Part shown: one piece after another, positions 2,041 to 14,842 of the stretch
Layout: each line of letters starts with the position of its first letter
Position numbering within the stretch: position 1 is the first letter of the stretch
Source of the DNA: Deltaproteobacteria bacterium
GTDB lineage: Bacteria > Myxococcota_A > UBA9160 > UBA4427
Assembly (NCBI GenBank): GCA_002719955.1
Contig: PBFW01000067.1
Location: forward strand, 62,001 to 126,000
DNA length: 64,000 nucleotides
Direction: 5' to 3'
Made by a program: the position numbers and the translations under genes
Notes under the pieces: model-generated
Told to the model about the DNA's origin: nothing
What the model saw: only the letters and a program-made list of their open reading frames with translations
Databases searched by the model: none

Positions 2041-2859
2041 CTAGCGAAGGACGGGTTCGAGAACCTTCCAGAGGCGCTCGGCGATCAACGTATGCCCCTC
2101 CGCCGTCGGGTGGATTCCGTCGGCTTGATTGAGATTTCGTCGGGCCGCGACGTCCTCGAGCAGAAAGGGGACGAAAGCGGTTGCGTAGGCCTCGGCGAGC
2201 GCTGGGTAGACGGCATCGAAGGCTTCGACGTAGTCGCGGCCGAGATTCGGCGCCGCTCGCATTCCCGCCACGACGAAGCGCGCCTTCGGATGGTTCTCGG
2301 TGGTTCGCTCGAGGATGGCCTCGAGGTTGGAACGCAGCTGATCGACGCTCTGTCCACGAAGCATGTCGTTCGCGCCGAGTTCGAGGACGAGCACTGAAAT
2401 CGGGAGTCGCAGGAGCCATGCGAGTCGGCGCAGCCCGCCGGTCGAGGTATCTCCGCTGACGCCCGCATTGACCACGAGATAGTCGAGCTCGGCTTCGTCG
2501 ATCCGTTGCTGGATCAGCGCGGGGAAGGCCTGATCCTCTTCGAGCCCATAACCCGCAGTCAGGCTCGTCCCGAGGAAGACGATGACGGGCGTATCGGCCT
2601 TCGCCCGCGTCCGAGCGCGCGTGGGCTCCGTCTGTGCACGGTCGAGGGAGCGGGAGCCGTCCAGGACTCCGGGATCGGTCGGTGTCGTGCTGTCGGAGCA
2701 TCCTGCGATCGAGAGGGCCAGCGCGAGGAGGGCAACCCGGATGGCGCTGAGGCTGGGAATGGACGCGAACGGGCTCGATGACGATGCACAGGTTCGTACC
2801 AGGCAGTAGTGTATGGATTGCGCCGCCCGCGCTTCCTCGATCCGAATCGGATTCCGCAT
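2041..2859 (-). CDS. tesA: TesA-like SGNH esterase / lysophospholipase, lipoprotein
   Basis: A GDSL/SGNH hydrolase of the TesA/arylesterase group that cleaves thioesters, aryl esters or lysophospholipids. All family blocks are present: GTSLTAGYG (97-105, nucleophile S99; the usual GDSL Asp is Thr), NAGVSGDTS (131-139), GAND (162-165) and DGIHP (247-251, catalytic Asp/His). A hydrophobic stretch ending LSIAGC gives a lipobox Cys at residue 54, so it is probably membrane-anchored on the outer side of the inner membrane or on the outer membrane. The stretch before the signal is unusually long, but ATG at 2859 is the only canonical start and follows GAGG. It is divergent from the ABC transporter at 2865, as tesA is from ybbA/ybbP in E. 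coli. Confidence 0.9.
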   Translation of the reverse strand: MRNPIRIEEARAAQSIHYCLVRTCASSSSPFASIPSLSAIRVALLALALSIAGCSDSTTPTDPGVLDGSRSLDRAQTEPTRARTRAKADTPVIVFLGTSLTAGYGLEEDQAFPALIQQRIDEAELDYLVVNAGVSGDTSTGGLRRLAWLLRLPISVLVLELGANDMLRGQSVDQLRSNLEAILERTTENHPKARFVVAGMRAAPNLGRDYVEAFDAVYPALAEAYATAFVPFLLEDVAARRNLNQADGIHPTAEGHTLIAERLWKVLEPVLR

Positions 2860-2864
2860 CGCGC

Positions 2865-3665
2865 ATGATCCTCGCTCGCAATCTCACCCAACGCTACTCA
2901 CTCTCCGTTCAGGCAGCCGATCCAGCGGACACGCGGCTCGAGGGAGGCGCGCGCCGATCGCCGGTCCTGACGGTTCTCGATGGTGTCGATCTCGATGTCC
3001 GCGAGGGCGAGGTCGTCGTGATCCTCGGTCCTTCCGGCAGCGGCAAGACGACGTTGCTGGGATTGCTCGCGGGACTCGACCGTCCCAGCGAGGGCGAGGT
3101 CGAACTCGCGGGGGTCGCGCTCTCGGGTCTTGACGAGGACGGTCGCGCCGCGCTGCGTGCCGACCGCATCGGTTTCATCTTCCAGAGCTTTCACCTGATC
3201 CCGACGCTCACCGCGATCGAGAATGTGATGGTGCCCCTCGAACTCCTCGATCGTCAACGCGCACCCGGCCCACGTGAGGCGGAGGCGATGGCGCGCGCCC
3301 TGCTCGAGCGGGTGGGTCTCGGCGACCGGCTCGACCACCACCCCGCCCAGCTCTCGGGGGGGGAACAACAGCGCGTGGGGATCGCCCGGGCTTTCGCGAA
3401 TCAGCCCGCCGTTCTCTTTGCCGACGAGCCGACGGGAAATCTGGATCGCGCGACGGGCGAGGAGATCGCGAACCTGCTCTTCGAACTCAACGAGCAACAC
3501 GGCACGACCCTGGTGATCGTGACCCACGATCTCGAACTCAGTCGCCGTGCTCACCGGATCATCCATCTGGCCGCTGGGCGGATCGACCAGATCGAAACGC
3601 CTCAGCCCCACTCGGGCGCGGCCGAAGGCGATGGGGTTCGGGCCGAGGTGGGGGGCGAGGGGTGA
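2865..3665 (+). CDS. ybbA: ABC transporter ATP-binding protein, YbbA/LolD type
   Basis: The ATPase of a MacB/LolD-type exporter. It shows Walker A GPSGSGKT (55-62), [12 protein letters not shown] around the Q-loop (107-117), signature LSGGEQQ (163-169), Walker B AVLFADEP (182-189) and switch His221. It partners the FtsX-like permease next to it, whose GTG start overlaps this stop by four bases (GTGA), implying coupled translation. ATG at 2865 is chosen because the family homology starts right after it; 5 bases separate it from the divergent esterase start. An upstream ATG at 2778 would overlap the esterase gene extensively. The pair probably moves a lipid, lipoprotein or peptide across or out of the inner membrane. 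Confidence 0.92.
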
Positions 3666-7138: not shown

Positions 7139-8062
7139 ATGCCTCGATGGATTGGGGCGCGCATGCTGACCGCAGGAGATTGGCGGTCCTGGCGCGTCTT
7201 CATCCGGTGGACGCTCGTCGGTGGACTGGCATCGTTCGTCTTGGCGGCGAGGCCATTCGCGGCGGAGTCCGATGCCTCGCTTCGATTTCTGGATGTGACA
7301 GGGGAGGGGCGCTCGTTTTCTCTCGCTGAGCTCCGCCTCGCCTGCGATGAACGTGAGATTGCCGTCGATGATCCCTATCACGGGAAGCGGATGCGTTATG
7401 TCGCGCTCTCCCTTCGATGTGTGCTCGACCGAGGATTCGCCGCGAGCGGAGGGGGGGAGGGGCAGCGAGATCGTGGGCTCCTCTTGCGCGCGAGCGACGG
7501 CTATACGCGCCCCGTCTCCGGTGGCGATCTGCTCGAAGTCGGTGGGTTCCTCGCATTCGCTGAACCGGATCGACTGGTGGCGGGTTCGCACGCTTCGCGC
7601 TTTACGAAGATAGATCGACGTCAGGTCGATCCTTCGCCCTTCTACCTGGTCTGGACCGGAGCCGAACAGGGGGATCCCCACGCTCACGCGTGGCCCTATC
7701 AGCTCGTTCAGATCGAGGTCGCGCCCTTCGAACAGGCCTTTCCGCGCACCGTTCCGAGCGGGCTCGCGAAGGGTCATTCGGGTTGGGAGGGCTATGCGCT
7801 CTTTCAGCATGCCTGCGCGAGCTGTCACTCGATCAACGGTGAGGGGGGAAAGATCGGGCCCGATCTCAATGTGCCCCGCAGTATCGTCGAATATCGCCCG
7901 ATCCCGCAGATCCGGAAATATATTCGCGACCCGGAGGCGACGCGCTACACGAGCATGCCCGCCCACCCGAATCTCAGCGAGGCCGACCTCGACGCGCTGA
8001 TCGCCTATTTTTCAGCGATGAGCCAGCGCAAAGACGATCCACGATCCCGAGGTGACTCATGA
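7139..8062 (+). CDS. Secreted c-type cytochrome with N-terminal accessory domain
   Basis: A 307-residue periplasmic protein. A signal segment (about 18-42) is followed by a domain of about 150 residues ending in a part that vaguely recalls sulfite-oxidase-type molybdopterin folds (no cofactor Cys identified). The C-terminal class I cytochrome c domain has CASCH (226-230) for heme attachment and Met273 (TSMP) as likely sixth ligand. It should carry electrons to a terminal oxidase. ATG at 7139 is used; ATG at 7163 is possible. The next gene's ATG overlaps this stop (ATGA), so it appears co-expressed with the cyclohydrolase-like and creatininase-like proteins. Why a cytochrome sits in this set is unclear. 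Confidence 0.85.
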   Translation: MPRWIGARMLTAGDWRSWRVFIRWTLVGGLASFVLAARPFAAESDASLRFLDVTGEGRSFSLAELRLACDEREIAVDDPYHGKRMRYVALSLRCVLDRGFAASGGGEGQRDRGLLLRASDGYTRPVSGGDLLEVGGFLAFAEPDRLVAGSHASRFTKIDRRQVDPSPFYLVWTGAEQGDPHAHAWPYQLVQIEVAPFEQAFPRTVPSGLAKGHSGWEGYALFQHACASCHSINGEGGKIGPDLNVPRSIVEYRPIPQIRKYIRDPEATRYTSMPAHPNLSEADLDALIAYFSAMSQRKDDPRSRGDS

Positions 8063-9132
8063 GTTCTGGTGATGGGGGACTCGGGATCCGCAAGGCGACC
8101 CTTCGTCTCGGGGAACACTCACTCGCCTTCGCAGACTTTGAGTTCGATGTGCACTTCTTTCGCGATCTGGCCCACGACGCGACCGCCATGGCGATCTCCC
8201 TGGGTGATCTCGGTCGGTCGGTGCCGCTGCTCGCGCGGGTGCATTCCTCATGCGTCACGAGCGAGTGCCTCATGGGCTGCGATTGCGACTGTGCGGAGCA
8301 ACTCGAGGCTGCACTCGTGACGATGGCTCGTGCGGGGCGCGGGGTGGTGTTCTATCTGATGCAGGAGGGGCGCGGCGCTGGGCTCACCGCCAAGGCGCGC
8401 GACCGGATGATCGTGCAGGCCAGTGGCAATCGCGTCACCACCTTCGAGGCGTTCGCGTCTATGGGATTGCCGGCTGATCTCCGGAGCTATGACATCGTCG
8501 CACCGATGAGTCGGATGCTCGGGATCCGCGCGCCGATCAAGCTCCTGACCAACAACCCGGAAAAGGCTGCGGCCGTGGCGAGTGCACTCGAGGCGGAGAA
8601 GATCGAGGTTTTTGGGATCGAATCGATCCAGGGTCCGACGTCGCGCTTCAATCGCGACTATCTGAGTGCCAAACACGATTTGGGCCACGTCCTCGATCGA
8701 CCGAGTCGTCGGCAGGGCGCGTTGCCGCCGACAGCCGTTCGCGTCTTCGAGCCGGCGGCGCTGCACGGCGATCCGCAGCGGGTCGTGACGGCTTCCTATT
8801 TTCTTCCGATCGCGCTTCCTCGTGGGCGCGAAGAGGCCGTCCAAACGGTGCCCGTGGATGCTGGAGACGTCGAGTGGTTTCGGCTGAGCGTGGTCTACGA
8901 TCGGGCGACTGAACGCGAAACGATCCTGCTATCGCTGGGCGGCGGGGAGGGCGGGATCGAGTCCGATCCCGATCGGCGGAGCGAACCCGTGACCATGCGT
9001 CTTTTCGATCGCCTGCCGGGCTCGGGATCCTCCGGTCGCGCGGCGCTGCGTCGTTCGTTGTGGGCGATTCGAGAGCGCGGAAGCGGAGGGGTGCTCGTTC
9101 GCTTCGACGATCGCGATCATGCCGAGCCCTGA
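8059..9132 (+). CDS. Divergent GTP cyclohydrolase II-like protein with C-terminal extension
   Basis: Residues 25-215 are a GTP cyclohydrolase II (RibA) fold, which opens the guanine ring of GTP. Aligned by eye to E. coli RibA without gaps across the site, the zinc ligands are C65, C76 and C78; MQEGRGAGL (101-109), Asp140/Arg142 (RibA D126/R128) and LLTNNP (162-167) are kept. RibA Tyr105 is replaced by Arg116. Extra cysteines (C70, C74) lie between the zinc ligands. The last about 140 residues match nothing I recognise. ATG at 8059 overlaps the cytochrome stop; the next gene starts 14 bases before this stop. A RibB (DHBP synthase) domain is not present, so ordinary riboflavin synthesis is not implied. 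Confidence 0.82.
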   Translation: MSSGDGGLGIRKATLRLGEHSLAFADFEFDVHFFRDLAHDATAMAISLGDLGRSVPLLARVHSSCVTSECLMGCDCDCAEQLEAALVTMARAGRGVVFYLMQEGRGAGLTAKARDRMIVQASGNRVTTFEAFASMGLPADLRSYDIVAPMSRMLGIRAPIKLLTNNPEKAAAVASALEAEKIEVFGIESIQGPTSRFNRDYLSAKHDLGHVLDRPSRRQGALPPTAVRVFEPAALHGDPQRVVTASYFLPIALPRGREEAVQTVPVDAGDVEWFRLSVVYDRATERETILLSLGGGEGGIESDPDRRSEPVTMRLFDRLPGSGSSGRAALRRSLWAIRERGSGGVLVRFDDRDHAEP

Positions 9133-11026
9133 AACCGCCGCGCGGGGACGCGCGCTGCTGGCGGAGCGAATCGCCTCCGTCCCCGGGACCGTCGCCGCTC
9201 TGCCCGATCGTTTTGCGGCTCTTGAGGGCGTGATGGGTGATCCGCCGCGCTGTCTCGTCACGACCGGGATCGGCACCTCCGAGGGGCACGCGCGTCATCT
9301 GGCGGAGGTGGCCGGGCGCTACTGCGGTCAGCCGGCTCGCTTTGCCTCGACCGGTTCGCTCATGAGCCATTCGCCTCCGGGCTCGGGAGCCGATTGGCTC
9401 GTCGTCTTTTCCCAGGGCCTGAGCGCGAATGCGCGCCACGCCCTCGCCCATGTGGACGATTGGAGCGGGGTGATCCTGGTGACGGCGCTCTCGCGAGCGA
9501 CCTCCGCCGCGGAGGGTTTGGATGACGAGAAGCGTGCCTGGCTCGAGAATCTCGAAGCGCGCGGAGTGATCCGTCTCGACCTTGGTTGTGGCACCGAATA
9601 CGGGGCCCTGCTCAGGGTGATCGGCGCCCGGGCCGGTTACGTCGCGGCTTGGAGTCTCCTGCGAACGCTCGCGGCTTTTCGACTCGAAGACACGAGTCCC
9701 CTCGAGATCGATGCTGCCCGGCTCGAGCGCGCGCAACGCGACGCTCCAGTCGAGTCGCACCGCGCCTTTCCGGAGAGCGAACGCCTTGCGCCCTTCTTCG
9801 ATGCTGGGCGCAGTCTATTGCTCGTTGCGGAGGGGGGCGTGCTCGAGATGGCGGATCAGCTCACGCTGAAACTCGCCGAGGGCATGTTGCGTCCACAGCC
9901 GCGAGCGGTGGACGTGCTGCAATTCGCGCACGGCCCCCTTCAGAGCCTCGCGCTCCGACCGATGTCGATCCTCTATCTAGCGCCAAGAGAGGCGAATGCG
10001 GATTCGGAGGCATGGCTCGAACGATTCACTTCGACACTCGATCCCGACCTACACGACCTGCGTGTTCTGCGGGCGAGCCTTCCGTGGCCCTTCGCCGTAC
10101 TCGAATACGAAGCGCTCTTCGACGATCTCGTGCTCCGGCTGCTCGCGGAAACCGAGGGAGACCTCATCGACTGGCCGGGCGTCGATCGGGAAATCGCCCT
10201 CTATTCCGCGGGCCCCGCTTTGCCCGAGACATCGGGTTCATCGCGACCGGACGCACAGGGCACGCGGCATTGGGAGGAAGCCGTCTGGCCCGAGCTGGCG
10301 ACGTTGATCGAGGGTGGCCGCCGGACGGCCCTGATCGGGCTGGGATCGATCGAACAGCACGGCCCCCACCTGCCGCTCGGGACGGATCGCTGGATTGCGG
10401 ACGCGCTCCTTCGGGGACTCGCCAATCGGCTCGAGTCCGCGGTCGCGTTGCCGGCGGTCGCGATGAGCTGTGCGGGCGAACATCTCGATTTCCCCGGAAC
10501 GTTGCATCTCGCAGCCTCTACGCTCGAAGCGATTCTTGGCGATCTCCTCCGCTCTGTTGCGCAACACGGCTTCGAACGTGTCTTCCTCTTCACCGCGCAC
10601 GGCGGGAACGTGGACGCGCTCGACGAGATGGGGGAGCGATTGTGCGAGATCGCGAGTCCGCTCACGCTGCGCATCGAGACGGACCTGCGGGTCGGTGCGA
10701 TGCAATCGTCGGCCGTGGAGGCGGAATCGCTCTCGGCTCTTTGTGCGGGACCGCACGCCGGCGAGTACGAGACGAGCCTCGTGGCGATGTTGCGGCCTGG
10801 TGCGATCCGCGCGGACGCTCTCGTTCCCGGGCGCATCGTCGAGCCCGGACAAGCCCAGGCTCTCTTCTATCCGAGTCTCCGCCCCAACACCGTAAGCGGT
10901 GTCTTGGGGGATCCCTCCTCGGCGTCAGCCAGTCGGGGAGGGCGCTATCTCCGAGCTTGGCTCGATCTGCTCGAGGGCGCCTATCGGACTGCCTTTCCGG
11001 ACGTTTCCGAGAAGAATCGCCAGTAG
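9119..11026 (+). CDS. SIS-domain / creatininase-family fusion protein
   Basis: Residues 1-360 form a duplicated sugar-isomerase (SIS) module like the isomerase half of GlmS (TTGIGTSEGHARH at 48-60; VVFSQGLSANARHA at 95-108; LAEGMLRP further on). Residues 385-630 form a creatininase-family amidohydrolase with the metal-site pattern E412, H414, D423 (EQHGPHLPLGTD), H494 (HGGN) and E549 (HAGEYETS). That family includes creatininase, MftE and ArfB, the FAPy deformylase of archaeal flavin/F420 synthesis. It overlaps the cyclohydrolase-like gene by 14 bases, suggesting consecutive steps: ring opening, deformylation, sugar-phosphate handling. That is inference. It is convergent with the next gene, sharing 46 bases of 3' end. 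Confidence 0.85.
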   Translation: MPSPETAARGRALLAERIASVPGTVAALPDRFAALEGVMGDPPRCLVTTGIGTSEGHARHLAEVAGRYCGQPARFASTGSLMSHSPPGSGADWLVVFSQGLSANARHALAHVDDWSGVILVTALSRATSAAEGLDDEKRAWLENLEARGVIRLDLGCGTEYGALLRVIGARAGYVAAWSLLRTLAAFRLEDTSPLEIDAARLERAQRDAPVESHRAFPESERLAPFFDAGRSLLLVAEGGVLEMADQLTLKLAEGMLRPQPRAVDVLQFAHGPLQSLALRPMSILYLAPREANADSEAWLERFTSTLDPDLHDLRVLRASLPWPFAVLEYEALFDDLVLRLLAETEGDLIDWPGVDREIALYSAGPALPETSGSSRPDAQGTRHWEEAVWPELATLIEGGRRTALIGLGSIEQHGPHLPLGTDRWIADALLRGLANRLESAVALPAVAMSCAGEHLDFPGTLHLAASTLEAILGDLLRSVAQHGFERVFLFTAHGGNVDALDEMGERLCEIASPLTLRIETDLRVGAMQSSAVEAESLSALCAGPHAGEYETSLVAMLRPGAIRADALVPGRIVEPGQAQALFYPSLRPNTVSGVLGDPSSASASRGGRYLRAWLDLLEGAYRTAFPDVSEKNRQ

Positions 11027-11718
11027 GCGAAGGGCACCCAGAACGAATAATAGAGCTGATTGGGGACGATTCGGATGGCCCATCCGAGGTCGAGGTCGCC
11101 CACGACGATGAAGAGATCCGCGATCAACCAGAGCGCGTAGTAGGCGGCACTGAAGCCGAAGAGGGCTCGCAGGAAGCTCGCGCGAGTCGGCTCGTACCGG
11201 AGATTGAGAGGAACCCAGACCCTCGATAGAAAGAGGCAGAGCACGAAGAATCCGAATTCATGGATCATCCAGAGGACCTGACCGTGTAGATCGGGCACGA
11301 ACCAACGCGTGATCTCATAGCCGACACCTGCCAGGACGGGGACGATCAAGGCCGTGCCGAGCGCCCAGCCGAGATTCCGGATCAGGCCGCGTTCGGGGCG
11401 AGCCACCCCGATCGCGAGCCAGAGGACGCGTAGGTCGCCCAGGAGGACGAAGAAGAAGGGGATGAGCGTCGTTGCGAACGAATCCTCGAGCAGCTCGGTG
11501 CGTAGGAGGGGGCCCGTCGAGAGCGGGTCGATCAGGGTCGCGACTGCGAAGAAGAGCGTGAGGCCCGAAACGAAACGTGCCGCGTCGGGGACGGTCGCGC
11601 GGGATTCGTCCGTTGGGACGGCGGCACGCCATGCGAGAAAGGCCAGCGGGACGACGAGGAGGGCGTAGGGGCTCTGGAGGTCGCTGTAGTAGACCTCATG
11701 CCAGAAAGATTTTGTCAT
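10981..11718 (-). CDS. Polytopic membrane protein of unknown function
   Basis: A 245-residue protein with about six hydrophobic segments (around 18-30, 48-62, 84-105, 115-140, 152-172 and 185-215) and a conserved-looking aromatic tail (LYYSFWVPFAYWRFF). I do not recognise the family. ATG at 11718 is the first start. Its 3' end overlaps the SIS-creatininase gene by 46 bases on the other strand. The only upstream neighbour is a doubtful small frame ending three bases before this start. Confidence 0.75.
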   Translation of the reverse strand: MTKSFWHEVYYSDLQSPYALLVVPLAFLAWRAAVPTDESRATVPDAARFVSGLTLFFAVATLIDPLSTGPLLRTELLEDSFATTLIPFFFVLLGDLRVLWLAIGVARPERGLIRNLGWALGTALIVPVLAGVGYEITRWFVPDLHGQVLWMIHEFGFFVLCLFLSRVWVPLNLRYEPTRASFLRALFGFSAAYYALWLIADLFIVVGDLDLGWAIRIVPNQLYYSFWVPFAYWRFFSETSGKAVR

Positions 11719-11721
11719 GGG

Positions 11722-11925
11722 TCAGGTCATCCGCCGTCGCATCGATCGGTCGCTTGCCCGCTCGATTCGTTCGAAGAAGTGAAGACGGTCGAGCAGGGGG
11801 TTGAGCCAACCCGAGGTGACGCAATAAGCGCGAGCGTGGGCGGAGGTGCATTGGAGGGCGTGCTCCAAGAGCTGCGGAAGTAGATGGCCGAGGGCCGCGA
11901 TCCAGCACAGGCTGAAGAGCCCCAC
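11722..11925 (-). CDS. Possible small protein (67 residues), doubtful
   Basis: A GTG-started frame whose codons end mostly in G or C, as in the real genes here, with a hydrophobic beginning (GLFSLCWIAALGHLL). The stop lies three bases before the membrane-protein start, which would suit coupling. There is no visible ribosome-binding site and I recognise no family. It may be a remnant or chance. Confidence 0.22.
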   Translation of the reverse strand: MGLFSLCWIAALGHLLPQLLEHALQCTSAHARAYCVTSGWLNPLLDRLHFFERIERASDRSMRRRMT

Positions 11926-12085
11926 CGACAGGCGATCGACTTCGAGCGCGGTGGTCTAACGCCCTTCGCGCCACCCACACCCTTCCTGCCCGTCGCATCT
12001 CTCATCGAACCGTTGACACCGACCACGCGGCGCTCTCCCCAAGACCGCCCGCTCGAGGCGGCCGCCAGAGTGTGCCACGAAAGAG

Positions 12086-12675: not shown

Positions 12676-13851
12676 TCAGGCGGGTCCCAGGACGACGGTT
12701 CCGTTGTGTCCACCGAAGCCGAAGGAATTCGAGAGCGACGGACCCGGGGTCCAGGGCCGAGCGTCTTTTTGGACGACATCGATCATCGGAAGCTCAGGAT
12801 CGAATTGTTCGAGTCCATCCGTCGGAGGAATCAATGCGTGGTGCATCGCGAGCAGAACCGACGCGGCCTCGAGTGCACCTGATGCGCCTAACGAATGTCC
12901 CGTTACGCCCTTGATCGAAGTCACAATCGGGCCGGGTCGTCCGAACATCTTGGCGATACCCTCGGCTTCGGCTCTGTCGTTGAGGGGCGTGCTCGTGCCG
13001 TGCGCGTTGATATGCGCGATTGCTGAAGCTTCGAGGTTTGCGTCGTCCAGCGCGCGCTGCATACATCGGGTGGCTCCGGCGCCGCCGGGGGCAGGGGCCG
13101 TGATATGGTGTGCGTCGGCGACGCTGGCCGAACCGAGGATCTCGCCGAGGATCGTCGCACCGCGGCGGGTCGCCTCTTCCCACTCCTCGAGAACCAGGAC
13201 CGCGCCGCCTTCGGAGATCACAAAGCCGTCGCGTGTGGCGTCGAAGGGGCGGGAAATTCCAGTCGCCGAGAGTGCCTTCATATTGGCAAAGCCGCTGATC
13301 GCGATCGGCGTCATGGCCGCCTCGGAGCCGCCGGCGACGACGGCATCGCAGATTCCGTATTGGATCCATCGGGCCGCGGAGCCGATCGCGTGGGTGCCCG
13401 TTGCGCAGGCTGTGGTGAGGCACTCACAGGGGCCCTGGAACCCGTGTCGCATCGAGATTGCGGCCGAGCCGGCATTCGCCATCATCATCGGGACGGTAAA
13501 GGGCGAGACGCGCCGCGCTCCCTTCTTGTCCAGCACGAGCGTCTGGTCTTCATGGGTCTGAGCGCCGCCGATGCCCGTGCCGACGAGGACGCCGATCCGA
13601 TCCTTCGCGACCGTGAGTGCGCCGGATTGTTCCAGGGCTTGTTGAGCCGCGGCGACGGCGAATTGCTCGAAGCGATCCGCGCGTCGGATGGCTTTTGCGT
13701 CTTCATAATAATCCTTGGGGTCGAAATCCTGCGCTCGCCGCGGGCCGGTCGGTTGCGGCGAGAGAAGTCCCTGCCAGAAGGCCTCGAGGCCTATGCCGAC
13801 CGGAGAGATCACGCCGATCCCCGTGACTGCCACGCGACGCTTTTCAGTCAT
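12676..13851 (-). CDS. fabF: Beta-ketoacyl-ACP synthase II (FabF)
   Basis: Elongating condensing enzyme of type II fatty-acid synthesis, 391 residues. Catalytic triad Cys149 (TTACATG), His284 (NAHGTSTPLND) and His319 (TGHSLGASG); C-terminal NSFGFGGHNG is typical. The ATG at 13851 overlaps the end of fabH by eight bases, so the two are translated together; in-frame ATGs further upstream lie inside fabH. No acyl-carrier protein or FabD is in the pair, so the genes may serve general fatty-acid synthesis or a special starter unit. Confidence 0.95.
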   Translation of the reverse strand: MTEKRRVAVTGIGVISPVGIGLEAFWQGLLSPQPTGPRRAQDFDPKDYYEDAKAIRRADRFEQFAVAAAQQALEQSGALTVAKDRIGVLVGTGIGGAQTHEDQTLVLDKKGARRVSPFTVPMMMANAGSAAISMRHGFQGPCECLTTACATGTHAIGSAARWIQYGICDAVVAGGSEAAMTPIAISGFANMKALSATGISRPFDATRDGFVISEGGAVLVLEEWEEATRRGATILGEILGSASVADAHHITAPAPGGAGATRCMQRALDDANLEASAIAHINAHGTSTPLNDRAEAEGIAKMFGRPGPIVTSIKGVTGHSLGASGALEAASVLLAMHHALIPPTDGLEQFDPELPMIDVVQKDARPWTPGPSLSNSFGFGGHNGTVVLGPA

Positions 13852-14842
13852 CGTCTTCCCGCTCATCCAAATCCGTTCGCCGGTCGACGCTCGCTCCCGC
13901 ACCGGGCATGGGCGATGGCCCGTCTTGCCACCGGATCAGTGCGCTGCCCCACGTCATCCCCGCACCGAAGCCCGTGAGCAGTACGAGGTCGTTGGGTTCG
14001 AGGCGGTCGTGATCGATGGCGTCGACGAGGGCGAGGGGAATCGAGGCGGACGAGGTATTGCCGGTTCGATGGAGCACGAGCGCGACGCGCTCGTGCCCGA
14101 TGCCCAGACGATCGCAGGCCGCCCGGATGATCCGAATATTGGCTTGGTGGGGAACCAGGAGCTTGATCTGATCGGGGCGGACCTTGGCTTGTTCGAGCGC
14201 GCGCGTCGCGGAATCGACGAGCACCCGGACCGCGCGTTTGAAGACTTCACGGCCGTCCATCTGGATGAAGCCGCCGTGGTCCGCCCGGAGGATCTCGCGC
14301 GCGGAGCCGTCGAGTCCGAGATCCCAGGAGAGGAGTTGGCCTTCGTCGGGCACGGATTCGAGGACGAGCGCGCCGCCGCCGTCACCAAAGAGGATGGCCG
14401 TCTTGCGGTCGCTCCAATCCGTCACATTGCTCAACGTCTCCGCCCCGATGACGAGAATCCGCTTGGCCCCACTTCCGAGCAGTCCGTTGGCCATGACGAG
14501 GCTGTAGACGAAGCCGGAGCACGCGGCGTTGACGTCGAAGGCCCCACCTCCAAGACCGAGTTCATGGTGTACATGAGCCGAAGTGGCGGGAATGGATTGG
14601 TCCGGGGTCGTGGTGGCAAGGATCATCAGGTCGATCGAGGCTGGAGCGATCCCGGCGAGTGCGAGTGCGTTGCGCCCTGCCGCGACCGCGATCTCAGCGG
14701 TCGAATCGCCGATATGCCGCTGGTGGATTCCGCTTCGCTCGACGATCCATTCGTCGCTCGTGTCGAGGGTCTTCTCGAGATCGGCATTCGTGACGATCTT
14801 TTCGGGCAGAGCCGTGCCCCAGCCGATGATGCGCATTCCCAT
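13844..14842 (-). CDS. fabH: Beta-ketoacyl-ACP synthase III (FabH)
   Basis: Starts fatty-acid synthesis by condensing an acyl-CoA with malonyl-ACP. 332 residues with Cys108 (NAACSG), His232 (PHQAN) and Asn262 (GNTSSAS). The family core ends near residue 305; an acidic tail of about 25 residues extends it, ending REDDD. fabF starts within the last codons. Alternative starts at codons 1 and 3 differ trivially. As the first gene of a fabH-fabF pair after a 274-base gap it probably has its own promoter. Confidence 0.95.
   Translation of the reverse strand: MGMRIIGWGTALPEKIVTNADLEKTLDTSDEWIVERSGIHQRHIGDSTAEIAVAAGRNALALAGIAPASIDLMILATTTPDQSIPATSAHVHHELGLGGGAFDVNAACSGFVYSLVMANGLLGSGAKRILVIGAETLSNVTDWSDRKTAILFGDGGGALVLESVPDEGQLLSWDLGLDGSAREILRADHGGFIQMDGREVFKRAVRVLVDSATRALEQAKVRPDQIKLLVPHQANIRIIRAACDRLGIGHERVALVLHRTGNTSSASIPLALVDAIDHDRLEPNDLVLLTGFGAGMTWGSALIRWQDGPSPMPGAGASVDRRTDLDEREDDD

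Follow-up and report, generated by a model that had tools for sequence, protein, structure and literature searches.

A conserved Myxococcota gene system with a putative stepwise route from GTP to a pterin and a PruR-like cytochrome c

Genes and domains of the locus

The window analyzed here, a stretch of 64,000 nucleotides from contig PBFW01000067.1 (contig 67 of assembly GCA_002719955.1, our genome G000), belongs to a Myxococcota genome and carries a compact gene cluster. It encodes a c-type cytochrome (CYT), a divergent GTP cyclohydrolase II (GCH II), here called RibX, a fusion of a sugar isomerase (SIS) domain with a creatininase domain, and an unnamed hydrophobic protein (DN1). The gene system is real and conserved, and no earlier description of it was found in the literature searched; among open-licence papers, none was found describing GCH II combined with creatininase and SIS. 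The features, with lengths of open reading frames (ORFs) in amino acids, are:

7139–8062, + strand: CYT, c-type cytochrome; 307-amino-acid ORF, Pfam Cytochrom_C 1.2e-10
~7277–7738, + strand: CYT N-terminal domain of SUOX/PruR fold, from predicted structure and a weak sequence profile match
~7778–8023, + strand: CYT cytochrome c domain; C226-A-S-C229-H230, candidate axial Met273
8059–9132, + strand: RibX, divergent GCH II with C-terminal extension; 357-amino-acid ORF, Pfam PF00925 (GTP_cyclohydro2) 2.6e-33
9119–11026, + strand: SIS–creatininase fusion; 635-amino-acid ORF, Pfam Creatininase 3.7e-55
~9119–10216, + strand: SIS domain (aldose/ketose isomerase-like), from structure match and family profile
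~10271–11023, + strand: creatininase domain, from PF02633, alignments and structure match
10981–11718, − strand: DN1, conserved hydrophobic protein of an unnamed family, convergent with the fusion gene
11725–11955, − strand: truncated CarF/PEDS1-type Lipid_desat remnant; PF10520 match of 32.8 bits

The CYT and RibX ORFs overlap by 4 bases (ATGA), those of RibX and the fusion protein by 14, and the DN1 gene overlaps the 3′ end of the fusion gene. The original prediction had described three overlapping ORFs at 7139–11026, encoding a CASCH cytochrome, a RibA fold with intact zinc cysteines and a sugar-isomerase/creatininase fusion. Coordinates, overlaps, heme motif and domain assignments are borne out here; the convergent DN1 had been missed. 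All four genes are under purifying selection, with nonsynonymous substitution (dN) of ~0.12–0.16 against synonymous substitution (dS) of ~0.7–1.1 between the window and its near relative L033.

RibX belongs to the fold family of GCH II (RibA), with a PDB match to 2bz0 (8.5e-28). Its C65, C76 and C78 are invariant in all eight members (six from the 282-genome scan described below, plus L033 and L035 from a contig search with the fusion protein) and line up with those that bind zinc in E. coli GCH II; E. coli Arg128 is kept as Arg142. Unlike RibA, all eight members have Arg (Arg116 in the window) in place of E. coli Tyr105, a tyrosine that all 20 ordinary RibA rows in this set retain, and RibX is further distinguished by a conserved ARDRM(I/M)VQAS stretch and its C-terminal extension. 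It scores below the NCBIfam RibA cut-offs (PRK00393, 136 against 148 bits; TIGR00505, 112.1 against 205.85) and forms a clade of its own (100/100) in a tree with 22 further RibA-family rows, that of E. coli among them, on a long branch of 2.7 changes per column; duplicate rows and zinc-cysteine-poor second PF00925 proteins were left out of this tree. In Streptomyces coelicolor, a GCH II that carries Met in place of this tyrosine reportedly yields the formylated formamidopyrimidine (FAPy) product (Spoonamore et al. 2006).

The creatininase domain of the fusion protein is recognized by PF02633 (187.4 bits, cut-off 31.3) and by a structure match to 3a6e (3.6e-11), and its E412, H414, D423 and H494 align with creatininase residues that we take to be metal ligands. 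The SIS half was identified by its predicted structure, whose matches include the GlmS isomerase domain of SIS fold (7dnr, E 7.2e-13), NagB-II and glucosamine-6-phosphate deaminases, and by its family profile, which finds 3knz (4.4e-5) and the AgaS-type tagatose-6-phosphate ketose/aldose isomerase 3c3j (1.8e-4). E254 and H271 (of an HGP motif) are invariant in 21 rows, align with AgaS 3c3j and presumably belong to the SIS active site. Unlike the AgaS/GlmS-type isomerases, whose fold, Glu and HGP motif it shares, the domain falls below the Pfam SIS cut-off (no match in the window protein; 16.8 against 25 bits in one relative) and represents its own family accompanying DN1.

CYT is presumably exported. 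Its predicted model (mean pLDDT 79) finds PruR 7kom as the best PDB match (E 2.7e-5, TM 0.77 on target), followed by chicken sulfite oxidase and then more PruR structures. A profile of the N-terminal domain searched against 177,635 PDB sequences gave 7kom as the sole match at E ≤ 10, a weak one (E 0.099), in which the invariant DGY of CYT falls on NDY of PruR and P(Y/W)QL on VWQL. The Tyr of DGY, aligned to PruR by this same weak match, is invariant in 17 of 17 CYT N-domains. A PruR review (PMC13259868) singles out Tyr104, Trp160 and residue 102 (Asn, or Asp in some groups) of the A. tumefaciens protein, to which the CYT motif residues would correspond, and describes PruR as being without the molybdenum cysteine; it makes no mention of a cytochrome. 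No Cys is invariant across the 17 CYT N-domains; that of the window does hold Cys.

CYT shares a SUOX fold and, as far as the weak alignment goes, perhaps also a conserved Tyr and a W/Y-Q-L motif with PruR, the periplasmic pterin-binding protein of the PruR-DcpA system, and differs from it in being fused to cytochrome c and linked with pterin synthesis genes and DN1. PruR-type two-gene operons include a DcpA/DTB regulator; no DcpA-type gene was found among the annotated neighbours in the window. PruR acts together with a cyclic dimeric GMP enzyme. At one CYT-only locus (L138, genome G007) a divergent PAS-GAF-GGDEF (diguanylate cyclase) gene (8248–10134, + strand) adjoins CYT, and at L143 of G266 a CobW-type GTPase gene (2551–3486, + strand) lies directly upstream of it.

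DN1 has no Pfam or NCBIfam match and no PDB sequence match at E ≤ 1; by eye, its sequence appears to be of membrane type.

Occurrence of the core genes and GTP cyclohydrolase I at related loci

The survey covered 282 Myxococcota genomes, and other phyla through the contig search with the fusion protein (five loci) and a plasmid search. The CYT family occurs in 49 of the 282 genomes (E ≤ 1e-20), DN1 in 38 (E ≤ 1e-12) and the SIS family in 23 (E ≤ 1e-15); DN1 is present in every one of the 23 SIS genomes, 17 of which have no RibX match. The conserved core is CYT, DN1 and SIS, and elsewhere GTP cyclohydrolase I (GCH I) replaces SIS. Within the window's genus the fusion was found in five of seven genomes, in one of them (G215) truncated at a contig end, but not in G167 or G181; G124, G171 and G176, which belong to the same taxonomic order, also have it. 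Confinement of the gene order to this genome would have counted against the original prediction, but the order recurs in further genomes. SIS is fused to creatininase with RibX alongside in eight genomes; in G124 and G171 the fusion, RibX and DN1 stand together, with CYT elsewhere. In other Myxococcota a stand-alone SIS gene directly follows CYT and DN1, whereas DN1 in the window is convergent to the fusion gene.

A RibX profile passes its limit in 74 of the 282 genomes; six matches are true RibX (497–596 bits), and the other 68, at no more than 179 bits, are ordinary RibA-type proteins. Orthologues of RibX hidden elsewhere in SIS-only genomes were considered and rejected: a weak second PF00925 match is present in all 11 genomes searched, and the eight such proteins that could be aligned are not RibX, since two or all three zinc cysteines are lost (those of G013, G023 and G033 fell under the alignment threshold). 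At eight SIS-only loci (L084, L086, L087, L088, L092–L095) the second RibA-like protein is ~400 amino acids or more, RibBA-like by length. Creatininase loci elsewhere in three SIS-only genomes (L096–L098) contain no RibX, SIS or CYT.

GCH I genes adjoin more distant CYT–DN1 pairs (for example L146, 2.5e-44; L149, 5.8e-43). A profile scan of the loci in 30 genomes with CYT and DN1 placed SIS in 20, a GCH I paralogue in 10 and both in none; the window genome was counted among the 20 from a separate locus comparison, and of the other three SIS genomes, G124 and G171 have CYT at another place, while in G215 the locus runs into a contig end. PF01227 matches at least twice in each of the ten genomes with such a neighbouring GCH I, so the copy beside CYT and DN1 is an extra one. 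Its Cys/His motif, which we take to be the zinc site of E. coli FolE, is kept in nine of the ten rows, the tenth being too short to cover it. Both types, SIS and GCH I, occur within host families f1 and f6.

CYT homologues also occur in 15 proteobacterial plasmid records, with 28–33% identity in the ten rows listed of the 15. Hosts of the plasmid CYT-like cytochromes are Pseudomonas, Burkholderia, Caballeronia, Cupriavidus, Tistrella and Microvirga, and a profile scan of five plasmid CYT regions (L198–L202) found neither DN1 nor SIS nor a GCH I paralogue. No steady partner emerged for CYT-only loci: a gene for a class I glutamine amidotransferase lies within ~3 kb of CYT in 5 of 18 (L130, L131, L133, L134 and L135); a weaker match stands beside the Pseudomonas plasmid homologue (L198).

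A proposed route to a pterin and its alternatives

Based on homology and gene neighbourhood, with domains, folds, kept or lost residues and linkage taken from sequence or model, we lean modestly towards the view that the locus makes a GTP-derived pterin stepwise for a periplasmic pterin-binding cytochrome c. We count in its favour the exchange of SIS for GCH I, the presence of DN1 in all SIS genomes, the PruR matches and the loss of Tyr105. In the scheme that we infer, RibX would open the imidazole ring of GTP, free pyrophosphate and, for want of Tyr105, stop at the FAPy nucleotide with its formyl group still in place. Removal of formate by the creatininase domain would give 2,5-diamino-6-ribosylamino-pyrimidinone 5′-phosphate (DARPP), and the SIS domain would convert the ribosylamine from aldose to ketose form (an Amadori rearrangement), allowing ring closure to 7,8-dihydroneopterin 3′-phosphate. 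RibX and the fusion protein would in this way do GCH I chemistry in steps; in SIS-only genomes, ordinary RibA of riboflavin synthesis would supply DARPP. Made in the cytoplasm, dephosphorylated and probably reduced, the pterin would reach periplasmic CYT, whose PruR-like domain may bind it beside the c-type heme to relay electrons or sense redox state, and DN1 may anchor CYT or move the pterin across the membrane.

The Amadori step is done by GCH I and not by GCH II, and the reaction is of a kind typical of SIS isomerases. The proposed order follows from the loss of Tyr105, from BrbF and Chlamydia precedents and from the Amadori step being SIS-type chemistry; an Amadori isomerization on the way to a pterin is the most likely role of SIS. 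In the original prediction, ring opening of GTP gave a formylated intermediate, the creatininase domain removed the formyl group and SIS altered the ribose-phosphate, while the cytochrome suggested a link to redox metabolism. That order fits the present findings, and the prediction is supported in part; the CYT–DN1–SIS core, the GCH I stand-in, the Amadori role and the PruR-like domain of CYT were missing from it.

As for precedents, FAPy formamidases of the creatininase family occur in bacteria as well as archaea: Sinorhizobium and Brucella have one, BrbF, and its upstream partner is "yet to be discovered" (PMC9478397). The creatininase domain shares with ArfB and BrbF its family, aligned metal-site residues and, as proposed here, a FAPy substrate; it differs in being fused to SIS and in its low ArfB score (see below). 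In Chlamydia, as described in PMC9765610, a promiscuous tryptophan enzyme shunts the RibA product DARPP towards tetrahydrofolate, the next intermediate being dihydroneopterin 3-phosphate. That route likewise diverts a GCH II product to dihydroneopterin phosphate; its enzyme is recruited from tryptophan metabolism and serves folate, unlike the dedicated SIS at this locus. The proposed overall chemistry (ring opening, deformylation, Amadori rearrangement, closure) is that of GCH I (FolE), although the enzymes of the locus are non-homologous to it, divide the work among three domains in two proteins and would be expected to yield a monophosphate rather than a triphosphate.

With a putative pterin site fused to heme c, CYT may serve in electron transfer or in redox sensing. 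We hold more tentatively, at a little short of an even chance, the fuller proposal of a dedicated pterin–cytochrome redox or redox-sensing system in which bacteria would have reassembled the function of GCH I from three parts, namely a FAPy-stopping GCH II, a formamidase of creatininase type and an Amadori isomerase of SIS type, so that a periplasmic cytochrome c is provided with a pterin.

Several observations weigh against this interpretation. The window genome has an ordinary GCH I elsewhere (C14). In a CYT tree of 48 rows, the ten GCH I-linked rows fall in one clade with three unlinked rows, so that the alternation of SIS and GCH I amounts to about one evolutionary switch between two sister subfamilies and not to repeated replacement. 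Among the 15 DN1 genomes without SIS, ten have the GCH I paralogue, and five have neither gene beside CYT or DN1: the loci of G055 and G266 are at contig ends, and in G005, G045 and G233 DN1 stands apart from CYT with neither source nearby. Another 18 CYT loci, some on short contigs, lack a nearby DN1 or pterin gene. The PruR Trp site is Trp in 9 and Tyr in 8 of the 17 CYT N-domains (Tyr in the window), and Tyr in nine and Phe in one of the GCH I-linked rows. RibX is rare, and G176 has the fusion without it; the effect of losing Tyr105 is presumed from the Streptomyces report. The best NCBIfam match of the creatininase domain is MftE (130.3 bits, cut-off 172), ArfB reaching 19.7 (cut-off 180).

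The MftE match, together with the long branch of RibX, could also be read as an MftE-like peptidase or other amidase beside a RibX that has no activity or uses some other nucleotide as substrate, the operon then serving a different pathway. We regard this as improbable: the MftE cut-off is not reached, RibX keeps its zinc-site cysteines and the equivalent of Arg128, and dN is well under dS. Of similarly low probability is a riboflavin-side module in which RibX and the creatininase make DARPP for flavins, SIS and CYT being mere neighbours. The BrbF precedent and the homology of RibX to GCH II speak for such a module, whereas the window genome already has a canonical RibA domain, SIS accompanies DN1 with or without RibX, and the equivalent place elsewhere holds GCH I and not a riboflavin enzyme. 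Unlikely, too, is a different GTP-derived product, with SIS cleaving or altering the sugar in the manner of a deglycase to give a free pyrimidine or another non-pterin redox compound for CYT. The NagB-II, deaminase and GlmS structures among the matches of the SIS half would allow it; the GCH I paralogues at equivalent loci, nearly all with the Cys/His motif, point instead to dihydroneopterin, and the CYT domain resembles a pterin binder.

A replacement role in folate synthesis was rejected for the window genome, given its ordinary GCH I. The nearly complete genomes G120 (98%), G003 and G048 have HPPK and no GCH I or FolE2 match; SIS is present in G120 and, at E ≤ 1e-15, absent from G003 and G048. 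G120 would fit SIS supplying dihydroneopterin, but proves nothing, because G003 and G048 are alike without SIS.

Neighbouring genes and meaning of the system

The Lipid_desat remnant beyond DN1 is the only PF10520 match in the window genome and covers profile positions 119–163 of 175. Relatives have an intact gene adjoining DN1 (for example L033:9199–9939), and the truncation could be real decay or an assembly gap. CarF/PEDS1-type desaturase genes lie beside DN1 or GCH I genes in the window's genus and in G124, G171, G005, G233, G021, G134 and G162. We considered such a desaturase as the purpose of the system and rejected it: since it was not seen in the scanned SIS-only loci and the window copy is a remnant, it is not needed, and a lipid role is optional at best. 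Further along, beta-ketoacyl synthase and ACP synthase III genes (12679–14842, − strand) are kept near the locus in L033, L034, L036 and L037.

If the pterin proposal is true, the locus would represent a new way of making and using pterins: dedicated steps would lead from a GCH II-type enzyme to a pterin, the unnamed SIS family would gain a function, and a cytochrome that binds pterin would be served by a supply of its own. It bears on whether FAPy-stopping GCH II enzymes feed bacterial creatininase formamidases. No pterin efflux system has been identified so far, according to PMC13259868, and DN1 would be a candidate for pterin passage to the periplasm. The system also bears on whether periplasmic pterins may carry electrons rather than merely signal.

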